From the NCBI GenBank assembly GCA_016867265.1, contig VGJW01000019.1:1-64000 (forward strand): a stretch of DNA of 64,000 nt, written 5' to 3'. Position numbers and translations under genes: made by a program. Shown here piece by piece: positions 57,457-64,000 of this stretch. Source of the DNA: Candidatus Tanganyikabacteria bacterium. GTDB taxonomy: Bacteria > Cyanobacteriota > Sericytochromatia > S15B-MN24 > VGJW01. The notes under the pieces were generated by a model. It was not told the DNA's origin and did not search any database. It saw nothing but the letters and a program-made list of their open reading frames with translations. Within the stretch, counting starts at the first letter, position 1; each line of letters starts with the position of its first letter.

Positions 57457-57873
57457 ATGAGCAGCCGCGAAGTTCAGGCAATCGCCTATACCCCGCCCCC
57501 GCAGAAGCCGGGCAGCGCCACCTCGGTGGCGAGCGCACAGGAGCAGGCTGACGGCTTCCTCAAGATGCTGGTCGCCCAGTTGACCAATCAAGACCCTGAA
57601 GCGCCACTGAATGCGACGGACATGATTGCCCAGTTCGCGCAGGTAAATGCAGCCATCTCGATGAGCCAGATCAACGAGGTCACGCTCGCCAACCAGCGCG
57701 TGAACGCCGCCACGGCGCTCATCGACCGGATGGTCACGCTCAAGGTCGGCCGCGACAACTACATCAAGGGCCGGGTCGAGTCCCTCGACTTCAGCAAGCC
57801 CGACCAGATGCCGCGCGTCCGGGTCAATGGCGAGGACTACCGTCTAGACCAGGTCGAGGCCGTCGAGGCCTGA
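57457..57873 (+). CDS. flgD: Flagellar hook assembly protein FlgD
   Basis: Hook-capping scaffold of 138 residues. The diagnostic core is DGFLKMLVAQLTNQDPEAPLN, followed by MIAQFAQVNAAISMSQINE. It is short compared with many FlgD proteins (about 220 residues): the C-terminal Ig/FnIII-like region is reduced to one small strand cluster. GGAG lies 8 nt before the ATG. It is the first flagellar gene in this operon; the upstream 145 bp are shared with the divergent HEAT gene. A GCCGAT string at 57401 is not a convincing sigma-28 site. Confidence 0.9.
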   Translation: MSSREVQAIAYTPPPQKPGSATSVASAQEQADGFLKMLVAQLTNQDPEAPLNATDMIAQFAQVNAAISMSQINEVTLANQRVNAATALIDRMVTLKVGRDNYIKGRVESLDFSKPDQMPRVRVNGEDYRLDQVEAVEA

Positions 57874-57935: not shown

Positions 57936-59075
57936 ATGGGCGACATTCGCCTGACGGGCGTCAACAGCATCCAGTCGATGGACCAATGGCTCAAGGTGCT
58001 TGCGGGCAACCTCACGGGCTCGAATGTGACGGGCTACAAGCAGCAACGCGTCGAGTTCGACGACGTGCTTTCGCAGACGATGTACGGGGCCACCAAGCCC
58101 GAGGGCGCGTTCGGTGGCCTGAACCCTATCTCGATGCCGATGGGCGGCAGCCGCATCAGCGCCATCAAGACGGACTTCTCGCAAGGCCTGCTCGCGGAGA
58201 GCACGCGCCAGACGGACCTGGGCATCAACGGCGAGGGCTTCTTCATCCTCTCCAAGACCCCCACGCCCACGACCATGGATGAGCTGGTCTTCACCCGCGA
58301 CGGCAGCTTCCGCCTTGACTACGTCGTCGACGGACAATTGGGCACCCAGACCTCGGGCAAGTTCCGCCTGGTCAACCAGGAAGGCATGTTCGTGATGGGC
58401 ATCCAGGGCGAGAAGAACACCTACCGGGACGGCGCCGCCAACTTGCCCGGCTTCGCATTGGATCCCCCGGCCAGCCGGCGCTCGCCGAGCGGGGACGGCG
58501 CCAAGATTGCGGAATTCAAGCAGCTGACGAATGGCGAGCCGAACACCAGCCCATCGTTCCAAAGCTATCTCTTCAAGCCCATCGAGATCGATCAGGTCAT
58601 CTCCAGCGATGTCGCCTTGGCCCGCAACACCAACATCTCGGACGAGACCATCAGGTTCGACGAGCGTGGTGGCCTGCTCGTCAACGGTGACGTCACGACA
58701 GACAAGGCCGGGAACAAGACACCGGTCTTCGTGGCCCTCGCCAAGTTCCAGTCGCGGGAGGGCCTCGCCCGGACGTCCTCTGGCTCGCTCTTCTCGTGGA
58801 CCCCGGCTGCAGGTGGGGACATCTTCCTGGGCGCCGCGGGCAGCCGCGTGCCGACCCGGACCGCGCCGACCGCCGGAGTGGGCAATACCGCGGACACCCT
58901 CGACGTGGGCTTCGACGGCACGCAGGTGCTGGGCCGACGGCTCGAGGCCTCGAACAGCTCGGTCAACACGACGCTGCCCGAGATGACCATTGCGCAGAAG
59001 TCCTTCACGGCCAGCGTCAAGATCATTCAGGTCGGCAACGCCCTGATCGACGACGTCAACAACCTCGTCCGGTAG
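57936..59075 (+). CDS. flgE: Flagellar hook protein FlgE
   Basis: Axial rod/hook protein of 379 residues, exported by the flagellar type III system. The N-terminal motif LKVLAGNLTGSNVTGYKQQRV and the C-terminal SNSSVNTTLPEMTIAQKSFTASVKIIQVGNALIDDVNNLVR form the coiled coil of hook and rod proteins. The gene order after flgD favours FlgE over FlgF/G. GAGACGAGG lies upstream of the ATG. The next gene starts 71 nt downstream. Confidence 0.9.
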   Translation: MGDIRLTGVNSIQSMDQWLKVLAGNLTGSNVTGYKQQRVEFDDVLSQTMYGATKPEGAFGGLNPISMPMGGSRISAIKTDFSQGLLAESTRQTDLGINGEGFFILSKTPTPTTMDELVFTRDGSFRLDYVVDGQLGTQTSGKFRLVNQEGMFVMGIQGEKNTYRDGAANLPGFALDPPASRRSPSGDGAKIAEFKQLTNGEPNTSPSFQSYLFKPIEIDQVISSDVALARNTNISDETIRFDERGGLLVNGDVTTDKAGNKTPVFVALAKFQSREGLARTSSGSLFSWTPAAGGDIFLGAAGSRVPTRTAPTAGVGNTADTLDVGFDGTQVLGRRLEASNSSVNTTLPEMTIAQKSFTASVKIIQVGNALIDDVNNLVR

Positions 59076-59146: not shown

Positions 59147-60025
59147 ATGGAGCCGCAGGCACCCGCCTTACAGCCCGCTCTCTTCCGCGCCCTCTACCAC
59201 TTGGGGATGCAGATGGCGGACGTGCTGCGCATGCCCCCCGAACCGGACGAGTACGGCCAACTTCCCGAAACGGGCCTGCCACAGCTCGAGTGGACGGTAT
59301 CCGGGCTCGAGATGTTGCCCTACGCAACCATGGCGGAACGGCACGGGCAAGAGGCCTTCTGGGGCGTCTACCAGTTCACGGAACAGGCAGGAGGCGTCCT
59401 CTTCCTGTTGTCGATGGCAGGTGTCCAGGCCCTGCTCGGAGGTGACGGGAACGAGGACCTGGACGACGAGGCCATCGGCATCGTCGATAACCTGCTCACC
59501 CGCGTCGCGGACCTGCATAGCCAGGCGTGGGCCGAAATCGCAGCCTTCGAAGGGCAACTGGGGACCTTCCCGGAGGCCCCGACGCTCGAGGAGCTGCAGG
59601 AAGTCGTCCCTGGACTCGCGCCTGCGACACCTATGGTCTGCACGTCCTTCCGCATCCGGACCTCAGGCCGGGCGACGGCGCGGCTGGTGGTGGCCTTGCC
59701 GCAACCGCTGATCTCTCCGCTCGACGAGGCCATGGAGGCCGTGGCCGAACTGACATGGCAGACGCGGGACGACTCGGCGGCTTCGGGCAGGCTGGCCCAG
59801 CTCGGGGACACACCCGTGCGCGTGCTCGTGACCTTGGGCAGCACCACGCTGACGCTGGCCGAGTTGCAGAACCTGGAACGTGACGACCTGCTGGTCCTCG
59901 ATCAGTTGGTCGTGGCGCCCCTGTCGGCGGATGTCGGTGGCGCGACCATCCGCGTCAGTCCCGGCACGACGCCCGACGGCCTGCGCCGGGCGGTGCAGGT
60001 CGTGCGTCTCGAGAGGGACGACTGA
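59147..60025 (+). CDS. FliM/FliY-like flagellar switch protein with SpoA domain
   Basis: Protein of 292 residues. A C-terminal SpoA domain (about 222-288, TPVRVLVTLGSTTLTLAELQNLERDDLLVLDQLV) is typical of FliN/FliM. The middle (GGVLFLLSMAGVQALLGG and LDDEAIGIVDNLLTRVADLH) resembles a CheC/FliM-like domain. The usual FliM N-terminal CheY-binding motif (LSQ.EIDAL) is missing, so it is closer to a stripped-down FliY/FliM. No signal or membrane span. The next gene starts inside its stop codon (TGATG). Confidence 0.72.
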   Translation: MEPQAPALQPALFRALYHLGMQMADVLRMPPEPDEYGQLPETGLPQLEWTVSGLEMLPYATMAERHGQEAFWGVYQFTEQAGGVLFLLSMAGVQALLGGDGNEDLDDEAIGIVDNLLTRVADLHSQAWAEIAAFEGQLGTFPEAPTLEELQEVVPGLAPATPMVCTSFRIRTSGRATARLVVALPQPLISPLDEAMEAVAELTWQTRDDSAASGRLAQLGDTPVRVLVTLGSTTLTLAELQNLERDDLLVLDQLVVAPLSADVGGATIRVSPGTTPDGLRRAVQVVRLERDD

Positions 60026-61404
60026 TGGCCCGCAAGCGCGCCGAGGTCCGTGTCCCCCTGCAGGGGCAGTGGTTGCCGCTGGTGGTGGGCGTGTACCCGA
60101 TCTTCCTCGTGATGAGCCTCATCACGCGGGGCAAGGGCGGTCTCAACCTGCTGCTGCTTGGTTTCTGGGGCGTGGCCGTCGCCGGACTGGCTGCGGCGCT
60201 GGCCCATCACCTGTGGTACCGGCGGCGCTTGCCACGCGTCGTCCTCATCCCGCCCGCGTGGTGGAAGGGGGCCGTGGTTTCCGTCGTCATGGGCCTGCTG
60301 GCGCTGCTGCTCCTCTGGGGGCTGTCGGCTCGGTGGGGGCTGACGCTCTCGCACAATCCGCTCGAGACACCTCGGGGCTGGCTGCAACTGACCGCCCGCT
60401 GGTTGCTGCGCGAGGCACCCGAGATGGCGCCCATTGCGCCTCGTGGCTTTGCGCGGTGGGTCTCCGGAGAGGGGACCTGGCGTGGGGCGTTGTGGGCGAC
60501 CGTCGGCATGGCCTCGGCCTTCGGGCTGGGTGGCCTGATGGCCTCGCTGCTGCGCAAGGAGCTCTTTGATCCTCGCCAGGAGCCCTTCGGTACGGCAGCG
60601 CTCTGGCCGGCGCTGCGCGGCCTTATCGGCTACTACTACGGTTGGAGCTTGGGATTCGCGGCCTCCTGGCTGACGGGCGTGCTGCTCGTTTCGGTCTTCG
60701 GGCCGGTCGGCAGCTCGATGCCGGCCGTCAGGGCCGTCCGCACCGCCCTCGGGTTCGTGGCGGATCCCGACCGGGCCATAAGCCACGGGTTCGTCGCCGG
60801 AGCCTGCATCGTGGCCATAGGTAGCCTGTTCATGGGCCGCGGAGACTTCACCGTGGCTTACAGCGATCCCAAGGCCCCGGACCGGGAACCCGACATGAAG
60901 GTCGCGATTCCCGAACTGCCCCAGTCCGAGCCGCCCGATTTGGACTTCAGCGCCCTCGAGGGCGAGACCGAGCAGCTTGCGGCGAGCTTCGGGCGCGATC
61001 TGGCCGCGACCATCCAGCAGATGGGCCTGACGGGCGAGGCAGGCAAAGCGGACCTCCCCGACCAACAGGACGACACTCCGGCTGGCGAGCCGGCAGTGGT
61101 CAATTTGCTGTCGCGGCGCCAACCGACCTTCGACACCTCCTTCGACCAGGCCTTGGGCCAGTTGGCTGGCGTCTACGTCCAGATCACGGCAAGCCTCGGC
61201 AGCGTCGACGTCTCCCTGGCTGACTGGATCACGCTCGAGGAAGGCTCGCTGCTCGAATTGCCCCGTGCCCAGGACGGCTCGGTCACGCTCTGCATCAACG
61301 GTCGGGCGGTCGGCAGGGCCAAACCGGCGCAGTACGAGGACCACGTCGCCATCAAGGTGCTTGCGTTGGAACCGGGGACCGTGGCGTCCCTGCGCGGAGG
61401 GTAA
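60025..61404 (+). CDS. Polytopic membrane protein with C-terminal SpoA (FliN-like) domain
   Basis: A 459-residue protein that I cannot place in a named flagellar family. The first ~275 residues hold about six membrane helices (for example VGVYPIFLVMSLI, LLLLGFWGVAVAGLAAALA, VVSVVMGLLALLLLWGL, GFVAGACIVAIGSLFMG). An acidic linker (about 275-370) leads to a SpoA domain (about 376-452, VQITASLGSVDVSLADWITLEEGSLLEL) homologous to the fliN product encoded next. It overlaps the upstream SpoA gene by 1 nt and precedes fliN by 4 nt. The likely role is to anchor a SpoA/C-ring or export-ATPase element at the membrane; this is inference. Confidence 0.75.
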   Translation: MARKRAEVRVPLQGQWLPLVVGVYPIFLVMSLITRGKGGLNLLLLGFWGVAVAGLAAALAHHLWYRRRLPRVVLIPPAWWKGAVVSVVMGLLALLLLWGLSARWGLTLSHNPLETPRGWLQLTARWLLREAPEMAPIAPRGFARWVSGEGTWRGALWATVGMASAFGLGGLMASLLRKELFDPRQEPFGTAALWPALRGLIGYYYGWSLGFAASWLTGVLLVSVFGPVGSSMPAVRAVRTALGFVADPDRAISHGFVAGACIVAIGSLFMGRGDFTVAYSDPKAPDREPDMKVAIPELPQSEPPDLDFSALEGETEQLAASFGRDLAATIQQMGLTGEAGKADLPDQQDDTPAGEPAVVNLLSRRQPTFDTSFDQALGQLAGVYVQITASLGSVDVSLADWITLEEGSLLELPRAQDGSVTLCINGRAVGRAKPAQYEDHVAIKVLALEPGTVASLRGG

Positions 61405-61408
61405 TCCC

Positions 61409-61747
61409 ATGACCGAAGACCCCACACAGGGCTACAGCAAGGTGCGGCTGGCCCCGCTCGCGCACCAGCCCGGCGACGGCGATCCTGCCCGACACAACCT
61501 GTCGCTGATGAGGGACATCCGCCTGACGGTCACCGTCGAGCTGGGCCGCACCAGCTTGCCCCTGCGCGAGGTCATGAAGCTGGTCGAGGGCAGTGTCATC
61601 GAGCTCGACCAGCTTGCCGGGGAGCCCGTCCATCTCTATGCGTCCGGACGCCACGTCGCCGAGGGCGAAATCGTCGTTCTGGGCGCCAACTTCGGCGTGC
61701 GACTGACGCGCATCCTGGGTACCGACCTCACGGGTATGGCCTCGTGA
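61409..61747 (+). CDS. fliN: Flagellar motor switch protein FliN
   Basis: FliN of 112 residues, a C-ring component. The SpoA domain covers most of it: IRLTVTVELGRTSLPLREVMKLVEGSVIELDQLAGEPVHLYASGRHVAEGEIVVLGANFGVRLTRIL. A short N-terminal tail replaces the longer one of enteric FliN. The start is behind GGAGGG. fliO follows with overlapping codons. Third SpoA gene in a row. Confidence 0.93.
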   Translation: MTEDPTQGYSKVRLAPLAHQPGDGDPARHNLSLMRDIRLTVTVELGRTSLPLREVMKLVEGSVIELDQLAGEPVHLYASGRHVAEGEIVVLGANFGVRLTRILGTDLTGMAS

Positions 61748-62169
61748 TGGCCACGGTGGTCGCCATCCTGACACCGATACCTGAAGCCGTCGCGACCGTC
61801 GCTCCCCTGGCGACGCCGACAGCGCCGGACTTTCCGATCGGCCAGTTCCTGCTCAACCTCGTCCTGGTCTGCGGCGCCCTCGCCGGCCTCGGGTGGCTTG
61901 CCAACCGCCTGGGCAAGGGCCGCCTCGCAGCCTCGCTGGGCGTCGGCGTCCGCCGGGACATCATCCGCATCGAGGACAGGCTGCCCGTGGATCCGCAGCG
62001 GGCCCTCCTCGTGGTCTCGGTCGAGGGGCAGCGCTGGCTCGTCGGGATGGGACCGAATGGTTTCGACCGCATCGGCGCGGTAGGCGAGCCTGCCGCCCTC
62101 GCGCCGCAGTCGGGACCCGGCAGCTTTGCCGACATCCTGGAACAGCAGCAGGAGGATCCGGAATCGTGA
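61747..62169 (+). CDS. fliO: Flagellar biosynthesis protein FliO
   Basis: FliO of about 140 residues, a membrane chaperone for FliP in the export gate. One predicted transmembrane helix (QFLLNLVLVCGALAGLGWLANRL), then a basic cytoplasmic segment with RRDIIRIEDRLPVDPQRALLVVSVEGQRWLVGMG, the typical FliO fold. The ATG at 61747 overlaps the fliN stop (TGATG); a GTG one codon earlier is also possible. fliP follows with a 1-nt overlap. Confidence 0.88.
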   Translation: MATVVAILTPIPEAVATVAPLATPTAPDFPIGQFLLNLVLVCGALAGLGWLANRLGKGRLAASLGVGVRRDIIRIEDRLPVDPQRALLVVSVEGQRWLVGMGPNGFDRIGAVGEPAALAPQSGPGSFADILEQQQEDPES

Positions 62170-62888
62170 TGACCCTGACCTTGCCCCCGCTCGCGGGGCT
62201 GAGCCAGGAGGCCAATCGCCTCCTGTCGGTCGTCGACCTGCGGGCCCCGATCGACAATCCGGGCCTGACGACGCCCATGCAGCTGATCTTCGCGCTGGCC
62301 CTGCTGACGGTGTTGCCCTTCATCGTGATCATGACGACCAGCTTCATGCGGACGATCATCGTTCTGGGCTTCCTGCGCCAGGCCATGGGCACCCAGACCA
62401 TCCCGCCCAACCCCGTGATGCTGGGCCTGGCGCTGTTCCTCGCCCTCTACACCATGAATCCTGTCTGGTCGTCGATCGACCGGGACGCCGTGCAGCCTTA
62501 TCTCGCGCGGCGCATCGACCAGCCCACGGCCATCAGCCGCGCCATCGCGCCGATGCACGCATTCATGATGCGCCAGACGAACGAGCAGGAACTGGCGTTC
62601 TTCCTGCGCATCACGAAGCAACCAGTCCCGGAACGGCGCGAGGACGTACCGCTGCTCGTGGCCATCCCCTCGTTCATGATTAGCGAGCTGACGACGGCCT
62701 TCAAGATCGGCTTCATCATCTACGTGCCGTTCCTCGTCATCGATCTGGTCGTGGCCAATGTCCTGATGGCGCTGGGCATGAGCATGCTGCCGCCCCAGAT
62801 GATCTCGACGGCCTTCAAGATCCTGGTGTTCTCGCTGGCCAATGGCTGGCACCTGGTGGCCCAGGCCATCATCACCTCCTTCAAGTAG
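62169..62888 (+). CDS. fliP: Flagellar biosynthetic protein FliP
   Basis: Core export-gate membrane protein of 239 residues. Signature stretches are LPFIVIMTTSFMRTIIVLGFLRQAMGTQTIPPNPVMLGLALFL, FMMRQTNEQEL, and LVAIPSFMISELTTAFKIGFIIYVPFLVIDLVVANVLMALGM. The N-terminus lacks a long cleavable signal. The ATG at 62169 overlaps the fliO stop by 1 nt (TGATG). Part of the FliPQR complex with the next two genes. Confidence 0.95.
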   Translation: MTLTLPPLAGLSQEANRLLSVVDLRAPIDNPGLTTPMQLIFALALLTVLPFIVIMTTSFMRTIIVLGFLRQAMGTQTIPPNPVMLGLALFLALYTMNPVWSSIDRDAVQPYLARRIDQPTAISRAIAPMHAFMMRQTNEQELAFFLRITKQPVPERREDVPLLVAIPSFMISELTTAFKIGFIIYVPFLVIDLVVANVLMALGMSMLPPQMISTAFKILVFSLANGWHLVAQAIITSFK

Positions 62889-62894
62889 GTCCCC

Positions 62895-63167
62895 GTGAGC
62901 GACACGACCGTCATCCACGTCGTCAGCCAGGCGATCATCTTCGTGCTGCTGCTGTCGGCACCCATCGTCCTGACCAGCCTCGTAGTGGGCTTCATCGTGG
63001 CGCTGCTGCAGACCATCACCAGCATCCAGGAGCAGACGCTCTCCTTCGTGCCCAAGACCCTCGCGGTCTTCGGCGTCATCCTGGCAGTGGGTCCCTGGCT
63101 GATGGCCACGATGGTGGGTTACATCAACCGGCTCTGGAGCTCGATTCCCGAGCTGCTGGGACGTTAG
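62895..63167 (+). CDS. fliQ: Flagellar biosynthetic protein FliQ
   Basis: FliQ of 90 residues with two membrane helices. HVVSQAIIFVLLLSAPIVLTSLVVGFIVALLQTITSIQEQTLSFVPK is characteristic. It starts with GTG, 6 nt after the fliP stop. fliR begins 6 nt after its stop. Confidence 0.95.
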   Translation: MSDTTVIHVVSQAIIFVLLLSAPIVLTSLVVGFIVALLQTITSIQEQTLSFVPKTLAVFGVILAVGPWLMATMVGYINRLWSSIPELLGR

Positions 63168-63173
63168 CCCGAC

Positions 63174-64000
63174 ATGATGGGAGAGGTCTGGCGCACGGCG
63201 GCCCTCGAGCTGCTGGGCCAAGCCATGCCGGTCTTCCTGCTCATGCTCGCGAGGGCCAGCGGGATGATGGGGCAGGCACCGATCCTCGGTGCCAAGGCCG
63301 TACCGGCGACAGGCCGCGCGGCCCTCGCGCTGGTGCTGACCTTTGCCTACTGGTCGAGCATGCCCCGGGCCCCCGAGGTCCCGAGCCAACTGCTGCCGTT
63401 CCTGCTGGCGCTGGTCGTCGAGGTCGCGACCGGCGTCCTCTTCGGCTACGCGGCGATGGTCATGTTCCAGGCCTTTCAGGCAGCCGGCGAACTGGTGGCG
63501 CAGCAGACGAGCCTGTCGATGATGACGACGCTGAACCCGATGTTGCGGACGCAGACGACAGCCGTCGGCAACCTGTTCTTCTATCTGGCGCAGACGGCCC
63601 TGCTGACGCTGGGCGGACACCTGTGGCTGGTACAAGGCTTCTACCAGAGCTTCGAGGTCATCCCGCTCGGGGGCTTCCAACTGACGGCCGAGGTCTGGGA
63701 GCAGATGGGCAAGCTGGTCATCAACTTCTTCCTCATCACCATCCAGGTCGCCATGCCCGCCACGATGGTGATGCTGATGGTGGACTTCGGCCTGGGCATC
63801 CTGAACCGGGCCATCCCGACGGTCCAGAACATCCTCGAGCTCGTGACGGCCGTGAAGCCCAGCATCGGCTTTGCCGTCATCGCGCTGATGACACCCAATG
63901 TCGTGGCCTCGGTCAAACTTTGGGGCGACAAGATGCTGCGCGAGTCCCACGCCACGGTCCTGATGACGCAACCCACGCCCGAACCGACGCCCATCGGGGG
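63174..64000 (+). CDS. fliR: Flagellar biosynthetic protein FliR, 3' end missing
   Basis: The frame from the ATG at 63174 stays open to the window edge, giving 275 residues so far. Many membrane helices and the FliR patterns LMLARASGMMGQAPILGAKAVP, MVMFQAFQAAGELVAQQTSLSM, and MVMLMVDFGLGILNRAIPTVQN are visible. About 260-270 residues is usual, so the stop should be close beyond the window. FlhB and FlhA would be expected next. An ATG at 63177 is the alternative start. Confidence 0.93.
   Translation, partial: MMGEVWRTAALELLGQAMPVFLLMLARASGMMGQAPILGAKAVPATGRAALALVLTFAYWSSMPRAPEVPSQLLPFLLALVVEVATGVLFGYAAMVMFQAFQAAGELVAQQTSLSMMTTLNPMLRTQTTAVGNLFFYLAQTALLTLGGHLWLVQGFYQSFEVIPLGGFQLTAEVWEQMGKLVINFFLITIQVAMPATMVMLMVDFGLGILNRAIPTVQNILELVTAVKPSIGFAVIALMTPNVVASVKLWGDKMLRESHATVLMTQPTPEPTPIG

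Follow-up and report, generated by a model that had tools for sequence, protein, structure and literature searches.

A conserved membrane-embedded SpoA protein encoded in a second flagellar-type system of Candidatus Tanganyikabacteria

We propose, with middling confidence, that a membrane-embedded SpoA protein, here termed TM-SpoA, belongs to the C ring of a second flagellar-type export system, where it would tie the ring to the inner membrane. Its gene occupies positions 60025..61404 (+) of the window, the 64,000-nucleotide stretch that we analysed, which comprises positions 1 to 64,000 of contig VGJW01000019.1 (assembly GCA_016867265.1) of a Candidatus Tanganyikabacteria bacterium. In favour of this reading are an architecture and gene order kept across the class, a FliF2 that carries the FliG middle domain (FliG_M), a FliM2 that lacks the CheY-binding motif, and a second gene set. 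The first-pass annotation had suggested a membrane-tethered C-ring or FliH-docking part of the flagellar switch operon, or else an anchor fixed close to the FliPQR gate. A tethered component of this kind stands as the best reading, given the FliN-type SpoA domain, the place of the gene and the conserved membrane domain, but it does not belong to the normal flagellar switch.

TM-SpoA is 459 amino acids long from an ATG start and consists of a six-helix membrane domain (60070..60834), an acidic linker and a SpoA domain at aa 380-446 (61162..61362), as had been anticipated from its hydrophobic N-terminal half. The six hydropathy peaks lie at aa 16-34, 42-60, 82-100, 158-176, 208-226 and 252-270, and orthologues mostly show four to six peaks at corresponding positions with an equal threshold. 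A Pfam check for a known family of this architecture returned only PF01052 (FliMN_C), at 45.8 bits against a cut-off of 23.8 (45-69 bits in orthologues), and aa 1-292 had no family match. Loop charges fit a topology in which both termini would be cytoplasmic and the loop joining helices 3 and 4 would lie outside; its length is about 50 aa in the order to which the window belongs, and families f6 and f7 have 110-170 aa here. The helices carry conserved glycines, and the predicted periplasmic loop is large and variable. An AlphaFold model of TM-SpoA (three sequences; mean pLDDT 37, pTM 0.33) was usable for the helices only. Relationship of the membrane domain to FlhA, FlhB, FliP, FliQ, FliR, FliO, FliF, FliL, MotA or MotB was rejected, as profile matches all fell below 1% probability, and no internal repeat of 3+3 helices was found in it.

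The SpoA domain is FliN-type as judged by profile comparison. In hhalign it matched the FliN2 encoded 4 nt downstream with an E of 3e-14, confirming the kinship noted earlier, and flagellar FliN/FliY with 7e-14, followed by FliM2 (1.5e-9) and FliM1 (5e-7). In NCBIfam the SpoA part matched SctQ best (TIGR02551, 44.2 bits; cut-off 100.8), while FliN (TIGR02480, 33.9 vs 84.05) and FliY (NF005995, 14.3 vs 218) likewise fell short of their cut-offs. Moreover, TM-SpoA departs from the soluble FliN/FliY proteins in its six hydrophobic helices, which are kept in 17 of 18 class genomes.

The gene is part of an operon with the order flgD2, flgE2, fliM2, TM-SpoA, fliN2, fliO2, fliP2, fliQ2, fliR2, which is shared across the order and retained from fliM2 onward in families f6 and f7. 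On the forward strand of the window it begins with a hook cap type FlgD2 (57457..57873; PF03963, conserved place) and a second-system hook or rod protein of the FlgE/F/G type (57936..59075; PF06429), whose gene precedes fliM2 throughout the order. FliM2 (59147..60025) ends within the TM-SpoA start, the two genes overlapping by one base (TGATG). Downstream lie FliN2 (61409..61747; 112 aa, TIGR02480 90 bits, over cut-off), FliO2 (61747..62169; PF04347 over cut-off) and the export gate proteins FliP2 (62169..62888), FliQ2 (62895..63167) and FliR2 (63174..63998, continuing beyond the window end), the last three identified from Pfam and NCBIfam comparisons. In several genomes FliO2 and FliP2 seem to form one fused ORF of about 346-413 aa (L028, L029, L030, L033, L034, L035).

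The product of 59147..60025, which the first-pass annotation had treated as unknown, is a SctQ-like FliM homologue, aligning to FliM1 by hhalign with 99.4% probability over FliM residues 55-331; the orthologues from f6 and f7 score above the PF02154 cut-off. CheY-P binds FliM through the N-terminal motif LSQxEIDxLL. This motif is present in FliM1 of the same class and absent from FliM2 orthologues.

The operon was initially taken for part of the organism's flagellar switch operon, an assignment that we reject, as the canonical one sits on another contig; the window operon is therefore part of a second flagellar-type system. Of the five SpoA domains encoded in the genome (G000), contig C15 has two and the window three. 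Contig C15 carries the canonical set, namely FlgB, FlgC, FliE, FliF, FliG, FliH, FliI, FlgD, FlgE, MotA, MotB, FliL, FliM, a CheC-type FliN/FliY, CheY, FliOPQR, FlhB, FlhA and CheA, together with flagellins, several of these names being taken from position and a look at the sequence rather than a family search. The genes of the second system are scattered over several contigs. Contig C5 holds a FliK-like gene, FlgF, FlgG, FlgA, FlgH, FlgI, a FlgJ-type rod-binding gene, a sigma factor, FlgB, FlgC, FliE, FliF2 and FlhA2, of which FliF, FlgF, FlgG, FlgA, FlgH and FlgI were assigned by Pfam and FlgB, FlgC and FliE by position and similarity. FlhB2 is on contig C3, and FliI2 on contig C16 behind a large acidic gene that, from its position, is read as FliH-like.

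Each genome thus equipped has a second set of FliP, FlhA, FlhB, FliF and FliI, and most class genomes with the second system also have a complete, separate canonical flagellum. Two family f7 genomes have the second system only, and flagellin, FliG/FliG_C and a second FliP were not found in them; these genomes are 74% and 87% complete, so the absences are suggestive only. FlgH and FlgI (L043:11762-13501) were seen only in the second-system cluster and in none of the canonical-flagellum stretches inspected, so the rings may be shared by both systems or the first flagellum may be without them. In G017:C23, FlgI and FlgG are each split into two overlapping or adjacent frames (L078:4362-7635), pointing to assembly frameshifts or decay.

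All tested parts of the second system score higher in NCBIfam as flagellar than as injectisome proteins. FliF2 (199 vs 129.75), FliP2 (235 vs 217) and FliQ2 (90.2 vs 88.9) exceed the flagellar equivalog cut-offs; FlhA2 (757 vs 772, the last residues missing from the query), FlhB2 (344 vs 349) and FliR2 (142 vs 169, the sequence clipped by the window end) fall below them, yet score above the injectisome models. In place of the SctJ, SctD and needle set of an injectisome, the system has FliF, FlgB/C/F/G and FlgH/I.

Within FliG, FliG_M is a part that binds FliM, and the torque helix is in FliG_C. The C-terminus of FliF2 (607-652 aa; L043:15999-17933, with orthologues in L045-L056 and L077) was identified as a FliG middle domain in each of the 11 genomes tested, at 30-52 bits against a Pfam cut-off of 25. 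The FliF2 family aligned with FliG1 over FliG residues 105-188 in hhalign (E 4e-9), and the same comparison of FliF1 with FliG1 gave nothing. A fusion of FliF to FliG_M has been published for Chlamydia FliF in non-flagellated cells (PMC4768692).

In the context of these findings we envisage the following assembly. FliM2 would dock directly on the FliF2-FliG_M ring, and with FliM2 held by the FliG_M at the end of FliF2 the C ring would hang directly on the MS ring. The SpoA domain of TM-SpoA may then pair with those of FliM2 and FliN2, taking by analogy the bridging slot that FliY has in Campylobacter, where it bridges FliM and FliN and helps to dock FliH and the ATPase (PMC6946799). The six helices could fasten the rim of the ring where the membrane surrounds the export gate, and a rim held in this way would offer a fixed platform for FliH2-FliI2 and for substrate sorting and export. 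The lack of a CheY-binding motif in FliM2 and of a FliG torque domain fused or linked to the core genes suggests that the second system works as a secretion machine or a hook-basal body rather than as a chemotactic swimming motor.

Several genes weigh against a purely non-rotating machine. FlgA, FlgH and FlgI are parts that guide a rotating rod, and the second system keeps all of them. In family f4, flagellin-like genes lie directly beyond FlhA2 (L047:11410-12399; L056:7499-9463), and their products may be exported by the second system. Furthermore, a membrane-tethered FliG is encoded elsewhere in the genome (L066:10644-12563 (-), corresponding to G000:C20:63643-65562; also L073, L075, L076 and L088). 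It begins with a signal peptide, after which come a periplasmic part with weak resemblance to FliF_C, a single helix and the N, M and C domains of FliG, and in most loci two further genes follow; MotAB-like genes are found close by in G006 and G009, and in G001 a MotB-like gene alone. Such a protein, in some genomes with MotAB-like partners, could drive the second system. The foremost alternative to a fixed ring is a true rotating flagellum, with rod, hook and P- and L-ring genes and a FliA-type sigma factor, in which TM-SpoA would be a rotor part turning with the MS ring, driven by the tethered FliG and MotAB-like proteins. We regard this as a real possibility, although on the unlikely side: the tethered FliG was found solely in families f1 and f3 and not in f2, f4 and f7, which also have the second system, FliM2 has no CheY-binding motif, and FliF2 already carries the FliG_M site as a fusion. 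As the tethered FliG may drive the second system, our confidence in the main reading is moderate.

A further alternative places TM-SpoA outside the ring, as an inner-membrane assembly or docking factor resembling an enlarged FliO, which would receive FliN2-FliH2-FliI2 and hand substrates to the FlhA-FlhB gate. Its gene does adjoin fliN2, fliO2 and fliP2, and six glycine-bearing helices with a large variable periplasmic loop would suit such a role. However, FliO2 is itself present and the SpoA domain is conserved at the level of a ring protein, and we consider this explanation improbable.

TM-SpoA, which we continue to favour as a ring component, has orthologues of the same architecture and place throughout the order, at 33-56% identity. 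The f6 and f7 proteins are longer (644-699 aa); their N-terminal tail is acidic and their third loop extended. The earlier suggestion that related genomes be scanned for a TM plus SpoA gene between fliM and fliN was borne out, as this arrangement recurs across the class, which is probably Sericytochromatia judging by how the phylum is made up. A1, a profile built from only the membrane half, detected the family in 17 of 18 class genomes, the one without it being 64% complete, and gave 0 matches in 368 genomes from elsewhere in the phylum, of which about 181 have an FlhA. The membrane half was not encoded in any plasmid record searched. Profile-level searching covered this phylum; the wider search, a single-protein scan over 84,980 species, returned two records only, both MAGs, at 52-53% identity, which seem to be contigs of G002 and G004. 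That sequencing or assembly error joined a membrane protein gene to a fliN-like gene, a danger raised at the outset, can be dismissed with near certainty, since the same single ORF recurs in independent genomes of several families and the second codon position is the least changed in both halves of the gene.

The SpoA proteins of C rings and sorting platforms are described as soluble, and literature searches for a membrane SpoA protein, and for the flagella of this class, yielded no relevant description. The closest counterparts are the FliY/FliN proteins of Campylobacter, Helicobacter, Bacillus and Thermotoga, which share with TM-SpoA a C-terminal FliN-type SpoA domain and a gene beside fliM; like Campylobacter FliY, TM-SpoA adds a third SpoA protein to FliM and FliN (PMC6946799). 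Where the FliY/FliN group has a CheC-like domain, however, TM-SpoA has its membrane domain, and it lies under the NCBIfam cut-offs of both families as well as that of SctQ. SctQ of the injectisome sorting platform, which the C-terminal part matches best in NCBIfam, is soluble, whereas TM-SpoA is membrane-embedded and the surrounding export genes score as flagellar. Chlamydia FliF (PMC4768692) resembles FliF2 in having a FliG middle domain at its C-terminus outside a chemotactic flagellum, but it is short and accompanied by few flagellar genes, whereas FliF2 matches both Pfam FliF domains within a system that has rod, hook and ring genes. The genome's own canonical flagellum (contigs C15 and C16) has homologues of the rod, hook, MS ring, export gate and C-ring genes; it differs in its separate FliG, a FliM with an EIDAL-type motif, CheC-type FliN/FliY, MotAB and flagellins, and in having no TM-SpoA.

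The origin of the second system was approached through a maximum-likelihood tree of 38 FlhA sequences, which is unrooted and contains long branches. FlhA2 forms one clade (100/100) whose branching follows the families of the class, and FlhA1 groups with the flagellar FlhA of other phylum members inside the flagellar group (89/91, not decisive). A tree constrained to hold FlhA1 and FlhA2 of the class together was rejected at p 0.026, which speaks, though not strongly, against a recent duplication of the class's own flagellum. On FlhA, the second system is thus supported as a separate deep lineage. Joining FlhA2 to SctV was not rejected (p 0.455), and FlhA2 may be a sister of the injectisomes.

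Other FlhA relatives were encountered alongside. A third FlhA clade occurs in other phylum members with small genomes (L128, L134, L135, L137, L138), many of them without a flagellar FlhA; in one family it is found as a cluster of FliF, two unknown genes and FlhA, joined in some cases by FliE or FliI. FlhA/FliI pairs occur at L129, L136, L139 and L140. Stand-alone FlhA cytoplasmic-domain proteins, some in frames of 400-900 aa, are present in G007, G008, G009, G011, G013 and G001:C41, with matches reaching about ten in G007 and G008, and a FliG_C-like fragment lies a few genes from such a protein in G001:C41 and G008:C407.

Taken at its widest, the second system might constitute a third line of type III secretion related to the flagellum, apart from the swimming flagellum and the known injectisomes and inherited vertically in a single class that stands beside the cyanobacteria. 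It would be a non-rotating hook-basal-body machine near the branch point of flagellum and injectisome, with a C ring both fused to the MS ring through FliF-FliG_M and anchored in the membrane through TM-SpoA; this wider reading is offered tentatively, and we think it more doubtful than otherwise by a good measure. A conserved membrane-embedded SpoA protein beside a FliF containing FliG_M would show a flagellar ring rebuilt without the standard FliG link. It would also provide a natural system, often beside a normal flagellum in one cell, for the role of the C ring in secretion apart from rotation, and the second system bears on how flagella and injectisomes parted.
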